This document shows, in pieces, positions 1 through 63,506 of a stretch of DNA of 64,000 nt. The DNA is from Desulfosudis oleivorans (GTDB lineage Bacteria > Desulfobacterota > Desulfobacteria > Desulfobacterales > SURF-7): assembly GCA_020723325.1 (NCBI GenBank), contig DYJD01000008.1, positions 62,001 through 126,000 of the forward strand, given 5' to 3'. Below the pieces are notes generated by a model. The model did not search any database and was not told where the DNA came from. It saw nothing but the letters and a program-made list of their open reading frames with translations. How positions within the stretch are numbered: position 1 is the stretch's first letter; every line of letters starts with the position of its first letter. The translations under genes and the position numbers were made by a program.

Positions 1-1678
1 GCACCCAGGAATTATGGTTGCGGATATTGGCCATTTCAAAAAGGTATTTGTTCAAGCCGGCATTGATGAGGGTCTCCTGGAACAGGGGCTCATGGGTTTT
101 GGGTGTACAGGCCGCCACCACAATCCGGTTCAGGTTTTTTTCCTTGATAAGCTGGACGATATTGGCCTGGGTATCCTGGGAACAGGCATACAAATTATCG
201 GCCGTGTATTCCACATAGGGAAGTTTGGCGGCGTATTCAGCCACACTGGGAACATCCACGGTTCCGGCGATATTGGTGCCGCAACGGCACACGAAAACGC
301 CGATGCGCGGACGTTCACCGGCAATATTGATTTCCGGCACGATTTCCGGAGTCTTGGTCAGGGTATTGCGGGCGGTTGTCAGCAATTCACCGGCGGCCTC
401 GGCTGCGGCACTGGCGTCAATGACCGACTGGGGGATATCCTTGGGGCCTTGGAAGGCGCCGCAGACAAAAATGCCTTTGCGGGAGGTCTGGACTGGTGCA
501 AAGGAGTCGGTTTGACAGAAATTGCCGCTGGTGAGTTTGATCCCCAGCTTGTCCGCCAACGCCATGGTTTGTTTGCTGGTTTCAAGGCCGATGGAGAGCA
601 CCACCATGTCAAAGACCTCGGTCTTGACTTCTCCGGCTTCGGACACATAGCGCAGTTCCAGATCATCGGTGCCCAGGACTGGTTTGATGGTATGCACCCT
701 ACTGCGCACAAAGCGGATCCCATGTTTTTCACGGGCCGCATCGTAGTAGCGCTCGAATTCCTTGCCGTGGGTGCGCATATCCATGAAAAAAATAGCGCAG
801 TCCAGATCTTCGCCTACATGTTCCTTGGCAATGACGGCTTCTTTGATGGCATACATGCAGCAGACCGATGAACAATAGGAATGATCGCATTTGTTCATAT
901 CCCGTGAACCCACACACTGGAACCAGGCGATCTTTTTTGGTTCCTTATGATCCTTGGAACGGCGGGCTACATGCCCCGCGGTGGGACCCGAAGCTGAGAG
1001 AATGCGCTCGAATTCCATGGATGTGACCACATTGGGATGGCTGGCGTAGTTGTAATTATCAAACGCCGACGGATCAAACGGAGTAAAACCCGGGGATAAA
1101 ATCACCGAGCCCACCTGTAAGCTGATGGTTTGCTCTTTTTGATCATAATCAATGGCTTCAGCCGGGCAGACTTTTTTGCAGTTGCCGCATTTCCCCTTGG
1201 TCAGATAAACGCATGCCTCGGGATCGATGCTGTATTTCAAAGGCACCGCCTGGGCGTATTCCACATAGATGGCTTTGCGTTTGGCCAGACCGCTGTTATA
1301 GGTGTCGACGATTTTTTTCGGGCATTTTTCAGCGCAGGCCCCGCAGCCCACACACTTGTTTACGTCCACATAGCGTGGGCGCTGGCGGAGTTTTACCTGG
1401 AAATTGCCCGCTTCTCCGTCAATGGATTCAATGTCACACAAGGTTTTAAGTTCAATGTTTAGATGCCGGCCGACCTCGACCAGTTTGGGCGAGATAATTC
1501 ACATGGCGCAGTCGTTGGTCGGAAAGGTCTTGTCCAATTGGGACATGACCCCGCCGATGGACGGCCCTTTTTCAACCAAGTAAACATAATAACCAGAATC
1601 GGCCAGATCCAAGGCGGATTGCATACCGGCAATTCCCCCCCCGACGACCATTACGGAGCCGATGACGTCTTTTGACAT
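1..1678 (-). CDS. hdrA: HdrA-like FAD/Fe-S heterodisulfide reductase subunit A, selenoprotein, partial (3' end outside window)
   Basis: Cytoplasmic flavin-based electron-transfer subunit of the heterodisulfide reductase family, which passes electrons between ferredoxin, thiols/disulfides and partner subunits. About 559 codons are visible. In order: an N-terminal FAD fold ([12 protein letters not shown]), the HdrA motif FPTNDCAM followed by an in-frame TGA (1499-1501, residue 60) and [12 protein letters not shown], then a CxxCxxCxxxCP ferredoxin cluster ([12 protein letters not shown]), a second cluster (CGNCKKVCP), and the FQCVGSRD and CSSVCCMYA Cys-rich stretches. The position of the TGA is Cys in ordinary HdrA, and coding continues uninterrupted for about 500 codons after it, so I read it as selenocysteine. 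An AGGAG ribosome site lies upstream of the ATG. The frame is open to base 1, so the protein is of the long sulfate-reducer type. Sec insertion is inferred, not shown. Confidence 0.9.
1465..1501 (-). promoter_or_regulatory. UGA selenocysteine codon with candidate bacterial SECIS element
   Basis: The UGA at 1499-1501 is followed by coding sequence able to form a small stem-loop. Seventeen nucleotides after the UGA comes GGUC (1481-1478), flanked by short complementary bases (CU/AG), with G/C-rich arms further out. In E. coli fdhF the bSECIS apical loop also presents GGUC at nearly the same distance from the UGA. The pairing is short and was worked out by eye, so the fold is tentative; the spacing and loop are the main support. 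Confidence 0.55.
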
Positions 1679-1905: not shown

Positions 1906-4900
1906 ATGAATTTTCCAACAACCCACGAAATACCTTATAATTATACTTCTGCGGATGATGCCAGAGTCATTCGCATACTGTTTGATTCGGCCACCTGGTA
2001 TGCCCTGGAAAAAATGCGCTTCCAGCGCAAGACCGGAAGGTTGGCCAAATTACTGATGCGCTTCATAGGCGACATATTTATGGTGCGCCGCAACCCTTTC
2101 TTATACCAAGAATTGGTGGATGACACCCACAGGCGCAACCATTTTTTATCTGAGCTGCAGTCGGACTTGAATTTCATTGCCGCCAAATCATCTGCTTCCA
2201 CCGAGCTTGCCGAAGTGTTGCAGAATTGCCGGGAATATCTCCGGGGATTGGCCGACGCCCTCAATGGCGCGCAACGCCTGCGGCAAAAGGTTATCAAGAC
2301 CCTAGGACCAATAATCGGCGAAGAGAACGTCTGCTTCGATCCTTTCAGCCTGGTCAGTCATATAACCGATGCCACGGATTGGCGCCTGCATCTGCCCTTT
2401 GCCGTGGTGCGACCGGCCCTGGAATCCCAGGTGGCGCCTTTGCTCGCCGCCATCGGCACATTGGGCTTGCAGGCCATTCCGCGCGGTGCCGGAACCGGCT
2501 TAACCGGCGGTGCCGTACCGGTCAGATCGGGTTGTGTGATGATCAATACGGAAAAATTAAACCACATCCACGGGATTGAGAAATTTTCAGCAACCGGTGA
2601 CAATGGGCAGGATCAAGAAGTGGCGGTGCTCCATCTGGAAGCCGGGGTGATTACCGGAGACGCCATGGCTTTCAGCGAGGCCCATGGCTATGTGTTTGCC
2701 ACCGACCCCACCAGTGCTTGGGCTTGCACAGTGGGCGGCAATATTGCGGAAAATGCCGGCGGGAAAACAGCCGTGCTGTGGGGAACAGCCATTGATAACC
2801 TTTGGTCCTTCCGCATCGCCATGCCCGGCGGAGCCCAGTGGGAAGTGCGGCGTATAAATCATCCCCTGCGGAAGATTTTGCCGGAGGATTGTGTTCGATT
2901 CACCCTTGTTGATCTGGAAAACGATAGGGTTCAGCATGAAATCACGCTTGCCGGAACCGAAGTTCGCAAACCCGGTCTTGGCAAGGACATCACCAACAAG
3001 GCCCTGGGAGGGCTGCCCGGAGTTCAAAAAGAGGGTACGGACGGTGTCATTACTTCGGCTAAATTCATTCTGCACCGACCCTATGCGCATACCGCTACAG
3101 CCTGCCTTGAATTTTTCGGTGATGACATGGATGAGGCTGCCAAGGTGATTTACGCGATTTCAAAGGCTTTTACAAACCAGGGGGAAGAGGCACTTATGGC
3201 CCTGGAGCATTTTGATGAGGAGTATGTGCGGGCCATCGCGTACAAGACCAAAGCCCCAAAGCGGGAAAGGCCCAAGGCGGTCCTCTTGATCGACATGGTG
3301 GCCCATGAAGCCCACCAGCTTGAACGCGCCAAAACACGGCTGCATGCATTGCTGGCAGACTACCGGAACACCAGTGTTTTTTTTGCTGCTGATAAAACCG
3401 AGGCCACCCGCTACTGGCAGGACCGCAAGAAACTCGGGGCCATCGCGGCCCGCACCAATGCTTTCAAACTCAACGAAGATATTGTTCTGCCGCTTCCTGC
3501 TCTGGCTGAATTCGCTGAATTTGTGGACAGCTATAACATCGAAGAGGAGCGGTATAACCAGAAGGCCCTGGTGTGGTCCCTGGGCACATATTTAGAAACC
3601 GCCGAGCCCCTGGCCGATCCCCAGTGGCTGGGCGCCAAAGTATCCAGAGCCAGGACCCTGGTGCGTGAAACCATCGACAAACTCACCTATGCCGGCAAAA
3701 AGCATTTGCGGGCCGAAACCCACATTCGGGTCTTGAAACAGGATTTGCTCGAATTGCTGCGCGGTTACACCAAGGTGTCCGGGGAGATTGAGAAGATGTA
3801 TGCCCATACCCGCGCCCATTTGATCGTAATCGCCACCCACATGCATGCCGGCGATGGCAACGTGCATGTGAATATCCCGGTTTTCTCAAATGACCGCGAC
3901 ATGCTGCTGCGGGCCTGGGAAACGGCTGAGGCCATCATGGCCAAGGCTGTGGAACTGGGCGGCGTGGTGAGCGGTGAACATGGTATCGGTTTTACCAAAC
4001 TGGGTTATATTGAACCGGAGCGACTGTTGGAACTATCGGCCTATCGTAAAATTATCGATCCGGACGGTTTGATGAATCCAGGGAAACTGTCCGACTTGAC
4101 GGTCCTGGAACAGGTATACACGCCATCCTTTAATCTGCTCGGTCTGGAAGCCCGGATTTTGCGGCACGCCTCCCTGCAGGAATTGGCCGGCCGCATTGCC
4201 AAATGCATCCGGTGCAGCCGTTGTAAAGCCGATTGCTGTACATTTTTTCCGGCCCGCAATCTTTTTTTTCATCCACGCAACAAAAACCTGGCCATTGCCG
4301 CATTGATAGAGGCTTTATTGTATGATACCCAGCGTTGGCGCTCGACCCAATTCGGGTTCCTGCAATATCTGGAGGAGATTGCCGATCATTGCACCATTTG
4401 TCATAAATGCGCGCCCCCCTGTCCGGTGGATATTGATACCGGCGCTGTCTCCTTATTGGAACGGCGGCTTTTGGTGGAGCGGCATTTTAAGCATACGTCC
4501 ATGTTGACCCGCCTGACCCTTGGGTATCTCGCCAGCAATTCCAATATCTACAACACCATGTTTCGGCAGGGGGTGCTAAAATGGGGTAGTCATTGCCAGC
4601 GTATGGTTTTCAGTCTGGCAGATTATTTCGGTCTTGCGGGTAAAATCCGTCTGCCTTCAGCAGCAGCGCTTTTGAACTCACCGATTACTCCTCCAGCTTC
4701 AAAAGATATGCGCGACGATCTGCCCCCTTGCAGCCAAGACCAGGCCTTGCATATTCGCCCGGATGCTGAAGAACGCTACACGGTCCTTTATTTTCCGGGA
4801 TGCGGTTCAGAGCGTTTGTTTTCCCAAGTGGGCAAAGCATCCCTTTATATACTGCTGCGAGCAGGTGCGGCGGTGGTGCTGCCGCCGCCGTATTTATGTT

Positions 4901-5529
4901 GCGGCTATCCGGCGCGGGTAAACGCCAAGATCGAGCTGGAAAATCGTTCCGTTCTCCAGGGATCGATTATTTTAAACCAAATCCGGGAAATGTTCGGCTA
5001 TCTCCCTTTTGATGCCTGTATCGTGAGTTGCGGCACGTGTAAGGAAGCGCTGAAAGAGCAAACCCTGGAAGCAATCTATGAAGCGCCGCTTATGGATGTG
5101 GCTCAATTTGTTGCCGGTAGCGGCTTCACTGCATCCTTGACCCAGGAAAATTATTATTACCATCGGCCCTGTCATGACTCCCTGGATGGGAAAGCGCTGG
5201 CCCTTTTTCCCCAAATTATCGGCAGTGAAGTAAAAGAAGTGCCCCACTGCTGCTCAGAGGCAGGGACCTTGGCTCTTAGCCGGCCGGACATTGCCGCCTC
5301 CATGCGCGCACGCAAGGAGATTGCCTTACAGGCAATTAAATTCGAAGAAATCGGACCAAACATCCTTTTAACCAATTGCCCCGCCTGCCTCCAAGGTTTG
5401 GGCCGCCATCCGCGTTTACCCTTTCGTCCACGCCATCTGGTTGAGGAGCTCGCCCGCATCAGCGGGGGGGATGATTGGGCCGAGGATTTGCGGCGAATGT
5501 TGGCGGGTGCTGAAGTGGTGACATTCTAA
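1906..5529 (+). CDS. FAD-binding and Fe-S/CCG-domain oxidoreductase (DUF3683, GlcD-GlpC-like fusion)
   Basis: A 1207-residue one-chain 2-hydroxyacid (lactate/glycolate-type) dehydrogenase. An N-terminal region of about 150 residues (DUF3683 type) is followed by an FAD_binding_4 domain (PRGAGTGLTGG near residue 193), a FAD-oxidase C-terminal domain (HMHAGDGNVHVN near 646, GEHGIGFTK near 690), a two-cluster ferredoxin unit (CIRCSRCKADC near 767, CTICHKCAPPCPVD near 829) and a C-terminal pair of CCG motifs (FPGCG, CCGYP, CGTCKE, HRPCHDS, CCSEAGT, NCPACLQG). This order equals GlcD joined to GlpC/LldE-type electron-transfer subunits. The substrate cannot be read from sequence; D-lactate is a reasonable guess. 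It is divergent from hdrA, which may point to shared redox function. miaA follows 22 nt downstream. Confidence 0.88.
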   Translation: MNFPTTHEIPYNYTSADDARVIRILFDSATWYALEKMRFQRKTGRLAKLLMRFIGDIFMVRRNPFLYQELVDDTHRRNHFLSELQSDLNFIAAKSSASTELAEVLQNCREYLRGLADALNGAQRLRQKVIKTLGPIIGEENVCFDPFSLVSHITDATDWRLHLPFAVVRPALESQVAPLLAAIGTLGLQAIPRGAGTGLTGGAVPVRSGCVMINTEKLNHIHGIEKFSATGDNGQDQEVAVLHLEAGVITGDAMAFSEAHGYVFATDPTSAWACTVGGNIAENAGGKTAVLWGTAIDNLWSFRIAMPGGAQWEVRRINHPLRKILPEDCVRFTLVDLENDRVQHEITLAGTEVRKPGLGKDITNKALGGLPGVQKEGTDGVITSAKFILHRPYAHTATACLEFFGDDMDEAAKVIYAISKAFTNQGEEALMALEHFDEEYVRAIAYKTKAPKRERPKAVLLIDMVAHEAHQLERAKTRLHALLADYRNTSVFFAADKTEATRYWQDRKKLGAIAARTNAFKLNEDIVLPLPALAEFAEFVDSYNIEEERYNQKALVWSLGTYLETAEPLADPQWLGAKVSRARTLVRETIDKLTYAGKKHLRAETHIRVLKQDLLELLRGYTKVSGEIEKMYAHTRAHLIVIATHMHAGDGNVHVNIPVFSNDRDMLLRAWETAEAIMAKAVELGGVVSGEHGIGFTKLGYIEPERLLELSAYRKIIDPDGLMNPGKLSDLTVLEQVYTPSFNLLGLEARILRHASLQELAGRIAKCIRCSRCKADCCTFFPARNLFFHPRNKNLAIAALIEALLYDTQRWRSTQFGFLQYLEEIADHCTICHKCAPPCPVDIDTGAVSLLERRLLVERHFKHTSMLTRLTLGYLASNSNIYNTMFRQGVLKWGSHCQRMVFSLADYFGLAGKIRLPSAAALLNSPITPPASKDMRDDLPPCSQDQALHIRPDAEERYTVLYFPGCGSERLFSQVGKASLYILLRAGAAVVLPPPYLCCGYPARVNAKIELENRSVLQGSIILNQIREMFGYLPFDACIVSCGTCKEALKEQTLEAIYEAPLMDVAQFVAGSGFTASLTQENYYYHRPCHDSLDGKALALFPQIIGSEVKEVPHCCSEAGTLALSRPDIAASMRARKEIALQAIKFEEIGPNILLTNCPACLQGLGRHPRLPFRPRHLVEELARISGGDDWAEDLRRMLAGAEVVTF

Positions 5530-61778: not shown

Positions 61779-63506
61779 ATGGAAAATGGAAAAATGAATA
61801 CACAACCGACAGCCGAACCCCATGGTGGTTCATTGGTGAATGTGGTCGTGGGAGAAACCAGGGCCTCGGTTTTAAAAGAAATGGCCATGGGGCTGCCGGA
61901 TATTTCCCTGAACAACCGACAATTGTGTGATTTTGAGCTTATCGCCTCAGGCGCCTTTTCGCCCCTCAATGGTTTTTTGACCCGGGCCGATTATGAAGCG
62001 GTTTTGGACCATATGCGTCTGGCCGATGGCACCTTCTGGCCCATACCCATTTGTCTGGATATTTCAGCGCTTGCGGCGAGCAAGCTGGAAAAAGGTCCAT
62101 CGGTGGCCATTCGAGACCCGGAGGGGTACTTGCTGGCCGTCATGTATATCGAAGATATTTGGCCGGCGGATCGAGCCAGGGAAGCCCGGATGGTTTACGG
62201 TACAACGGATACGGATCATCCAGGGGTCCATTATTTATTTCATGGCACGGCGGATTATTATGTGGGCGGCAGGCTGGAAGTGATTAGTCTGCCGTTGCAT
62301 TCGGATTTTAAACAAATTCGTTTGACTCCGATGGAAGTAAGACATGTCTACCGGAAGCTCGGCTGGCAACGCATAGTAGGCTTTCAAACCAGCCAACCCA
62401 TTCATCGCCCTCAGTTTGAAATGACCATCCGCGCCATGCGCAAGGCCGGCGCCAATCTGCTGATTCTGCCGGTGGCCGGCATGACCAAACCAGGGGATTT
62501 TGATCATTACATCCGGGTACGCTGCTATCGCAAGGTGGTTCAACATTATCCGCCGGATTCATATATCTTGAACCTGCTTCCCCTGGCCATGCGTATGGCC
62601 GGTCCCAGGGATGCCTTGTTGGACGCCATTGTGGGCAAGAATTACGGCTGCACCCATTTTATCATCGGTCCTGATCATGCCAGCCCCGAGGGCAACCAGG
62701 GTCGAAGCTACTATAGCATTGATGAGGCCGGTGCCGCTGCCATCCGTTTTTCAGAAGAGCTGGGGATTGTGATATTGCCCCTTAAGCAAATGGTTTATCT
62801 GCCCTTTGAGGATGAATATCGTTTCGCCGATCAAGTGCCGGCCGGATCTCAAACTATTTGCATGTCCGGATCGGAAATTCGCGCCCGGGTTCGTTCTGGA
62901 CGAAATATTCCAGACTGGGCCACATTTGATGATGTGGCCGAAGAATTGCGCAAGGCCTATCCGCCGCCACGCAAGCAGGGTTTTACAATATTTTTAACCG
63001 GGCTATCAGGTGCGGGAAAATCGACCATAGCCAAAATATTATATTCCCGTTTTTTGGAAATCGGCGAGCGTCCGGTTTCCCTTTTGGATGGCGACATTGT
63101 TCGTCACAATTTGTCAAGTGAATTGTCTTTTTCCAAGGAGCACCGGGATATCAATGTGCGCAGAATCGGTTTTGTGGCCGGGGAGATCACCAAGAATCGC
63201 GGCATTGCCATTTGCGCCCCCATTGCCCCCTATGCTGCCACCCGTTTGGAAATCCGCAAAAATATCGAAAATTACGGCGGCTTTATTGAGGTTCATGTGG
63301 CCACACCCATTGAAGAATGCGAAAGAAGAGACCGTAAAGGTATGTATGCCAAAGCCCGGGCCGGATTGATCAAGGGGTTTACCGGCGTGGATGATCCTTA
63401 TGAAGTCCCGTCCTTTCCGGAAGTCCGTATCAATACAACGGACTTGACGCCGGATGAAGCGGCCCAGGAGATCTTGTTATATCTCGGTCAAAAGGGTTAT
63501 CTGTAA
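61779..63506 (+). CDS. Fused sulfate adenylyltransferase / adenylylsulfate kinase
   Basis: A 575-residue bifunctional protein. Residues 1-390 are an ATP sulfurylase (SAT) domain, with LILPVAGMTKPGDFDHYIRV, LLPLAMRMAGPRDALLDAI and MSGSEIRARV. Its ATP motifs are altered: QTSQPIHR (near 204) replaces QTRNPxHR and GPDHASPEG (near 296) replaces GRDHAGPG, so two conserved Args are missing. Residues 395-575 are an APS kinase with intact P-loop GLSGAGKST and DGDIVRHNLS, INVRRIGFVA. It makes PAPS if the SAT half works. galE follows, suggesting a sulfated polysaccharide pathway. ATG 61779 is used; ATG 61794 is possible. Confidence 0.88.
   Translation: MENGKMNTQPTAEPHGGSLVNVVVGETRASVLKEMAMGLPDISLNNRQLCDFELIASGAFSPLNGFLTRADYEAVLDHMRLADGTFWPIPICLDISALAASKLEKGPSVAIRDPEGYLLAVMYIEDIWPADRAREARMVYGTTDTDHPGVHYLFHGTADYYVGGRLEVISLPLHSDFKQIRLTPMEVRHVYRKLGWQRIVGFQTSQPIHRPQFEMTIRAMRKAGANLLILPVAGMTKPGDFDHYIRVRCYRKVVQHYPPDSYILNLLPLAMRMAGPRDALLDAIVGKNYGCTHFIIGPDHASPEGNQGRSYYSIDEAGAAAIRFSEELGIVILPLKQMVYLPFEDEYRFADQVPAGSQTICMSGSEIRARVRSGRNIPDWATFDDVAEELRKAYPPPRKQGFTIFLTGLSGAGKSTIAKILYSRFLEIGERPVSLLDGDIVRHNLSSELSFSKEHRDINVRRIGFVAGEITKNRGIAICAPIAPYAATRLEIRKNIENYGGFIEVHVATPIEECERRDRKGMYAKARAGLIKGFTGVDDPYEVPSFPEVRINTTDLTPDEAAQEILLYLGQKGYL

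Follow-up and report, generated by a model that had tools for sequence, protein, structure and literature searches.

A conserved in-frame UGA, very probably a selenocysteine codon of a known type, in an HdrA-type gene

The HdrA-type gene and its neighbours

The DNA analysed here (the window) is a stretch of 64,000 nucleotides, C78:62001-126000, from a genome that totals 7.2 Mb in 113 contigs. At its left edge, on the minus strand, the window contains the 5' portion (1..1678; codons 1-559 of 1014) of an HdrA-type gene, recognised from its translation, its extension into the flanking stretch L009 and its match to a solved methanogen HdrA (5odc_A). The reading frame starts with the ATG at 1678, exits the window at base 1 and closes in L009 with no further stop; the whole gene occupies C78:60634-63678, its remainder (C78:60634-62000) being located outside the window. 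As claimed in the original prediction, the frame contains a TGA (1499..1501, read 1501-1499) and is open on either side of it. This TGA is codon 60, the sole internal stop among the 1014 codons, and it occupies the last position of the CxxU motif DCAMU. Regarding the length of the coding sequence past the UGA, the earlier figure of about 500 codons must be replaced by 954: the gene is about twice as long, the window edge having cut it.

The expected FAD and Fe-S motifs are both present in the frame: (i) GGGIAG (1625..1642, minus strand), upstream of the UGA, which we take to be the FAD-binding motif and which is accompanied by Pfam FAD-fold matches from residue 9 onwards; and (ii) a ferredoxin CxxCxxCxxxC motif (1322..1354, minus strand), downstream of the UGA, with a Fer4 match at residues 103-122. 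A codon-usage scan of the window for further UGA-interrupted genes returned zero but, as it missed hdrA itself too, it is uninformative.

The encoded protein matches 5odc_A with 620 bits in three stretches whose order is changed: residues 455-613, 10-329 and 827-1010 match residues 2-160, 147-458 and 466-649 of 5odc_A, respectively. From its N-terminus, this two-lobe protein comprises an FAD lobe that carries the CxxU motif, a ferredoxin domain, a domain of the HdrA N-terminal type, another FAD lobe, which has no CxxC motif, and a further ferredoxin domain. Codon 60 aligns with Cys197 of 5odc_A (offset counted by hand). In the first lobe, E224 (codon at 1007..1009, minus strand) and K279 (842..844, minus strand) align with E356 and K409 of the Methanothermococcus thermolithotrophicus HdrA, two residues that have been tied to bifurcation (PMC12054007); the equivalents near FAD by which a bifurcating-type HdrA is recognised are, then, found in lobe 1, and lobe 2 has D and E at those positions (aligned by eye). 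The scores obtained with the three NCBIfam HdrA families are below their cut-offs (NF040770, 959.1 vs 1100; NF041778, 738.9 vs 1400; NF041891, 719.5 vs 1300) and, in consequence, the protein is filed here as HdrA-type, not as the CoB-CoM enzyme.

The gene after hdrA (L009 14137-14568 = C78:60137-60568, minus strand) is of the MvhD type (FlpD domain, 181 bits) and has an in-frame UGA of its own at codon 67 (U67), together with a conserved hairpin. Its motif was found in 56 distinct sequences (43 TGA and 13 Cys). A 6-bp stem located after this codon (ATTACC-TGGAA-GGTAAT in the gene itself) is whole in the 42 TGA sequences that are long enough (42/42) and in one of the 13 Cys sequences, while the exact stem sequence of the gene itself is present in 36/43 TGA and 0/13 Cys sequences. 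The three genes past mvhD encode a 4Fe-4S protein, an AsrA/HydB-like protein and an AsrB/HydG-like protein, which presumably correspond to FlxC, FlxB and FlxA. The order hdrA-mvhD-flxC-flxB-flxA on one strand occurs in 43 of the best 80 of 187 loci, 56 of those 80 reaching more than 3.5 kb past hdrA; the 43 include two Lokiarchaeota contigs (L155 and L156), with Cys in HdrA.

On the other side of hdrA, 227 bases away, a divergent gene (1906-5529, plus strand) encodes a 1207-residue GlcD-type FAD oxidase with a C-terminal Fe-S/CCG part; a match to this oxidase stands beside hdrA in 2 of the 107 loci searched (L064 and L065), many of which have short flanks. Near the opposite end of the window, a plus-strand frame (61779-63506) resembles, by eye, a sulfate adenylyltransferase joined to an APS kinase.

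Codon 60, its hairpin and the selenocysteine machinery

The motif around codon 60 was located at 108 places, which carry TGA (66), TGT (22) or TGC (20), some of them recurring in overlapping loci. After removal of one spurious TGT (leaving 107 places) and of one place too near the end of its locus, 93 distinct 54-base sequences were left: 59 with TGA and 34 with a Cys codon. The motif pattern admitted only stop, C, A, S, G, T or W at this position, and none of TAA, TAG, A, S, G, T or W was found at the 107 places. The original prediction was right in placing the TGA where HdrA proteins normally have Cys, which is the known CxxU position of HdrA: as in other selenoproteins, an in-frame UGA stands where homologues carry Cys. 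The 80 loci are the best 80 of 187 and were found partly via a Cys-coded peptide pattern, so that the Sec/Cys ratio is no survey; likewise, the 59 UGA homologues are related and do not amount to 59 independent events. Among those best 80 of 187 loci, the closest relatives that bear a name belong to the Desulfobacteraceae and other Desulfobacterales. The same UGA is present in a cultured relative, Desulfoluna (L098 and L139). In the source genome, six of the eight HdrA copies with the motif have TGA and two have TGC. The 30 loci from 15 genomes with a second SelB (see below) provide 19 distinct sequences, 10 with TGA and 9 with Cys.

Other arrangements were observed as well. In L112 (1628-7784), HdrA is split after approximately residue 115: its N-terminal part, which has the UGA, is linked to ferredoxin-like parts and is separated from the remainder of HdrA by a formate-dehydrogenase-like gene that contains a UGA as well (names by eye). 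In-frame TAG codons were seen in HdrA-like frames of several genomes; we assume that they end one of two adjacent genes (QmoA/QmoB).

Folding of the region downstream of the UGA yielded the predicted stem-loop, a putative bacterial selenocysteine insertion element (bSECIS; 1466..1483, minus strand). Its 7-bp stem (CUGGUCG/CGGCCGG) begins 15 nt past the UGA and has a calculated energy of -10.2 kcal/mol; its apical loop, AGGU (1473..1476, minus strand), comprises nt 23-26 and is 22 nt from the UGA. The published constraints for bSECIS elements are a loop of 3-9 nt, a stem of 4-16 bp, a G in the first two loop positions, a spacing of 16-37 nt and a minimum free energy of -7.5 or lower (PMC13188914), and the hairpin agrees with all of them (4-nt loop, 7 bp, G in second place, 22 nt, -10.2 kcal/mol). 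The GGUC that had been proposed 17 nt past the UGA does exist, but it sits in the 5' arm of the stem, where it is paired; it was therefore rejected as the bSECIS loop, which uses the next GGU instead.

The pairing is conserved. All seven pairs are formed in 53 of the 59 distinct UGA homologues, five pairs in 5 and four in 1, whereas none of the 34 distinct Cys homologues forms seven (six pairs in 13, five in 12, four in 8 and three in 1). Of the six UGA exceptions, four have a hairpin of about -10 kcal/mol that is displaced downstream by a few bases; the other two (L080 and L081; 2/59) lack a comparable hairpin (-2.5 kcal/mol). L027, one of the 53 fully paired sequences, also folds best in a shifted register. 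Among the 10 TGA sequences from second-SelB genomes, seven pairs are formed in 8, six in 1 and five in 1. When synonymous codons were re-dealt within the UGA set, the observed pairing was reached in 16/200 trials; when they were re-dealt from the UGA and Cys sequences together, it was reached in 0/200. Covariation is nearly absent, because the stem hardly varies among UGA homologues and, in consequence, the case for the hairpin rests on frozen synonymous sites: against each of five orthologues, the hairpin codons are identical in 6/6 positions, while other codons for the same residue are identical in 40-49%. Judged by these comparisons, the hairpin is selectively kept, its codons being frozen where the homologue has UGA and free where it has Cys. 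Such a clear sign of selection on the hairpin is unusual.

With respect to the protein, comparison with the five orthologues gave pN values of 0.015-0.081 before the UGA and 0.159-0.215 after it, with pS values of 0.54-0.83; by this measure, purifying selection acts both before and after the UGA. A decayed gene or a sequencing error, in which the UGA would be a true premature stop, is for these reasons rejected as practically negligible: purifying selection persists after the UGA and 59 distinct homologous sequences share it, 53 of them with the same hairpin, and nothing was found in favour of decay or error other than the fact that standard reading halts at this codon. Programmed termination, in which the UGA would mostly stop translation for the sake of regulation and a second product would start downstream, is very improbable too. 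A frame with 480 codons inside the window could begin at the TTG at 1441; however, its product would lack the GGGIAG motif, which precedes the UGA, and the fact that homologues swap UGA for Cys speaks in favour of a residue at this position.

The genome encodes the machinery required to insert selenocysteine (Sec): selA (contig C106, 605 bits), canonical selB (C92:43990-45882, 385 bits), selD (contig C52, 368 bits), which likewise contains one in-frame TGA, and a canonical tRNA-Sec (selC). The latter is a contig-edge fragment, since contig C15 starts inside it; 71 bases were matched with 49.7 bits (cut-off 47), and it has G73. A total absence of the machinery, which would have spoken against the original prediction, is thus refuted, and its claim that this cell uses Sec is supported by the machinery genes and by the selectively kept hairpin.

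With an estimated probability of roughly 0.9, the hdrA UGA is a Sec codon. Codon 60 would be read as Sec by tRNA-Sec and canonical SelB, the latter binding the hairpin right after the codon. The Sec residue would stand where the HdrA CxxC motif has its second Cys, in the FAD lobe (the first) that keeps E224 and K279. This HdrA probably works with the MvhD-type protein (U67) and with three Fe-S/flavin subunits, which we take to be Flx-type and which are similar to AsrA, AsrB and other Fe-S proteins. We infer that the complex performs a bifurcation reaction, with its corresponding electron carriers, and that Sec offers it a benefit over Cys. In any case, judging from the sequence data, codon 60 is very probably a real, conserved Sec codon of an already known type; residue 60 is most likely Sec and, possibly, Cys at times.

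A second SelB and a possible second meaning of UGA

The sole complete tRNA-Sec match over the cut-off in the source genome (C1:59802, 51.9 bits) has A1:U72, U73 and a UCA anticodon. It was rejected as the canonical selC: A1:U72 and U73 fit selC*, and the true tRNA-Sec is the fragment on contig C15. The selC* tRNA-Cys of Desulfobacterales has been described with A1:U72, U73, a UCA anticodon and a second selB (selB*) downstream (PMC7609411). Directly downstream of the C1:59802 tRNA there is, indeed, a second SelB gene (SelB*; 7851-9890 of L010, minus strand, L010 being C1:50000-69000), whose product is 31% identical to canonical SelB. With the tRNA-Sec-like type, the three marks and the second selB all present, C1:59802 looks like a selC*-type tRNA-Cys(UCA) and, given this tRNA and the second SelB, Sec may not be the sole possible residue at the hdrA UGA. 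Through the selC*/CysRS* system, Cys is placed at UGA codons for Sec, and the system has been posited to serve selenoproteins when selenium is scarce (PMC9437257); both PMC7609411 and PMC9437257 review Mukai 2017 on selC*/SelB*/CysRS*.

In that system, the tRNA has an 8/4 fold with the A51a bulge, and cysS*, which encodes a CysRS without the anticodon-binding domain, lies downstream of selB*. Within the 19-kb stretch L010, no CysRS gene was found near selB*, and a CysRS match was obtained in only 1 of 28 loci (L217), many of which have short flanks. The second CysRS of the genome (L229; C5:20297-21661 and upstream) matches positions 1-458 of the 466 of the CysRS model and is encoded in the same 773-residue frame as a cysteine-synthase-like part that precedes it (by eye). 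Its KMSKS loop looks altered (by eye).

SelB* was found in 12 of the 116 genomes of the order (11 with a match of at least 40% identity, plus G024, with 34%, included on account of its tRNA; G083, with a partial match of 39%, was not counted), and 11 of these 12 also have a canonical SelB elsewhere. A tRNA-Sec-like UCA tRNA adjoins SelB* in all 11 loci that reach upstream, the twelfth locus starting inside the gene. At the level of the phylum, 17/297 genomes match the second SelB at E <=1e-110; the 15 new loci have a UCA tRNA in 6 cases, a GCA tRNA of the same long type in 6 and none in 3. The GCA tRNAs, which are long, tRNA-Sec-like and carry a Cys anticodon, lie close to SelB-type genes in L218, L219, L220, L221, L222 and L224. 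Among the 23 tRNAs of these order and phylum loci, position 73 is U in 22 and A in one. In a SelB tree of 43 rows, a clade of 19 comprises the SelB* rows and three GCA-linked rows; the other 24 are canonical SelBs and three other GCA-linked rows. L182 (from G024) forms a long branch.

It is possible, though rather doubtful, that the UGA has two meanings, being read as Sec via tRNA-Sec and SelB, and as Cys via selC* and SelB* when selenium is short, which would result in two HdrA versions. The selC* marks of the C1:59802 tRNA (PMC7609411), the second SelB directly downstream and the role posited for selC* under selenium scarcity (PMC9437257) all point that way. So does the finding of a complete canonical tRNA-Sec, always with G73, in 18 of the 21 genomes picked for a second-SelB match, the other three being the source genome (with its fragment) and two drafts, 86% and 74% complete. 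Against it stand the lack of a CysRS gene near SelB* within L010 and the mRNA-reading helix of SelB*. Among the rows of the order, to which this comparison was confined, the helix sequence RK[YF] occurs in 19/19 canonical rows and in 0 of the 10 SelB* rows that reach the helix, its Arg being kept; these read GYGR (9) or GNSR (1), and the SelB* of the source genome has GYGR in place of SRKY. One of these ten, L174, looks disturbed after the helix. With a helix so changed, SelB* may not bind the hdrA hairpin or, the difference being conserved, may read only part of the UGA set.

A further argument against two meanings comes from the surroundings of SelB*, where a separate Cys-coded hdrA-mvhD pair could serve instead. 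Divergent beside selC*-selB* lie a CCG-type gene (HdrB/D-like, by eye), a Cys-coded hdrA and a Cys-coded mvhD (L010 10423-15313, plus strand), the latter two being 64% and 73% identical, respectively, to their counterparts at the window locus. An Hdr cluster stands beside the second SelB in at least 5 of 13 loci, source genome included, a lower count since the loci differ in length; HdrA is Cys-coded in 5/5. Besides L010, Hdr genes adjoin the second SelB in L203, L208, L209 and L210. A more speculative proposal, which we consider unlikely, is that (i) the hdrA and mvhD UGAs are two-way, giving Sec with selenium and Cys without it; and (ii) selC*-selB*, which adjoins a Cys-coded Hdr cluster in this genome as well as in several relatives, would be the hub of a switch from selenium to sulfur in the electron-bifurcating Hdr complex. 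Given the changed SelB* helix and the separate Cys-coded hdr genes, other roles are conceivable. A search of the literature for a second bacterial SelB by name found no such paper among those listed; likewise, a limited search, in which the cluster itself was not named, found no paper tying selC*/selB* to a neighbouring Cys-coded Hdr cluster.

Comparison with known systems

Reading codon 60 as Sec would add one more Sec site to those known, here in an HdrA-type enzyme, within its bifurcating lobe, from an anaerobic bacterium that is likely a sulfate reducer. The same cell has parts of a second system, which is believed to decode such UGA codons as Cys; HdrA-60 and MvhD-67 are named codons at which the posited Sec-or-Cys double decoding could be tested directly.

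The original prediction was correct in considering Sec-containing HdrA as known from methanogens and deltaproteobacteria; for the latter, a Sec-HdrA with a neighbouring MvhD/FrhD selenoprotein has been published (PMC1794560; PMC2702500). The present gene resembles the Sec-HdrA of Deltaproteobacteria and methanogens in that (i) UGA replaces the second Cys of the motif (PMC1794560; CxxU entry in PMC13188914); and (ii) it clusters with an frhD/mvhD-type selenoprotein gene (PMC1794560). It differs in its gene order, which continues with AsrA/AsrB-like genes, not with frhG-frhA, and the near-invariance of the hairpin is a measurement of the present analysis.

In Desulfobacterium autotrophicum HRM2 (PMC2702500), the Sec-coded hdrA1 and hdrA2 are each followed by mvhD, of which there are several Sec copies; Sec and Cys paralogues coexist in one genome and selA-D are present, as in the source genome. 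The listing of selA-D in PMC2702500 does not mention a second SelB, whereas the source genome has one beside a selC*-type tRNA. With the selC*/SelB*/CysRS* system of Desulfobacterales, the source genome shares the tRNA-Sec-like UCA tRNA with A1:U72 and U73 and the second selB directly downstream of it; it differs in the surroundings of selB*, where L010 contains no CysRS gene, and in its second CysRS, which shares its frame with the cysteine-synthase-like part. Finally, the HdrA of M. thermolithotrophicus (5odc_A) has three homologous stretches in common with the present protein, which keeps E356 and K409 as E224 and K279, but the domain order is rearranged, with the FAD lobe first and a second FAD lobe devoid of CxxC, and the position of Cys197 is occupied by the UGA.
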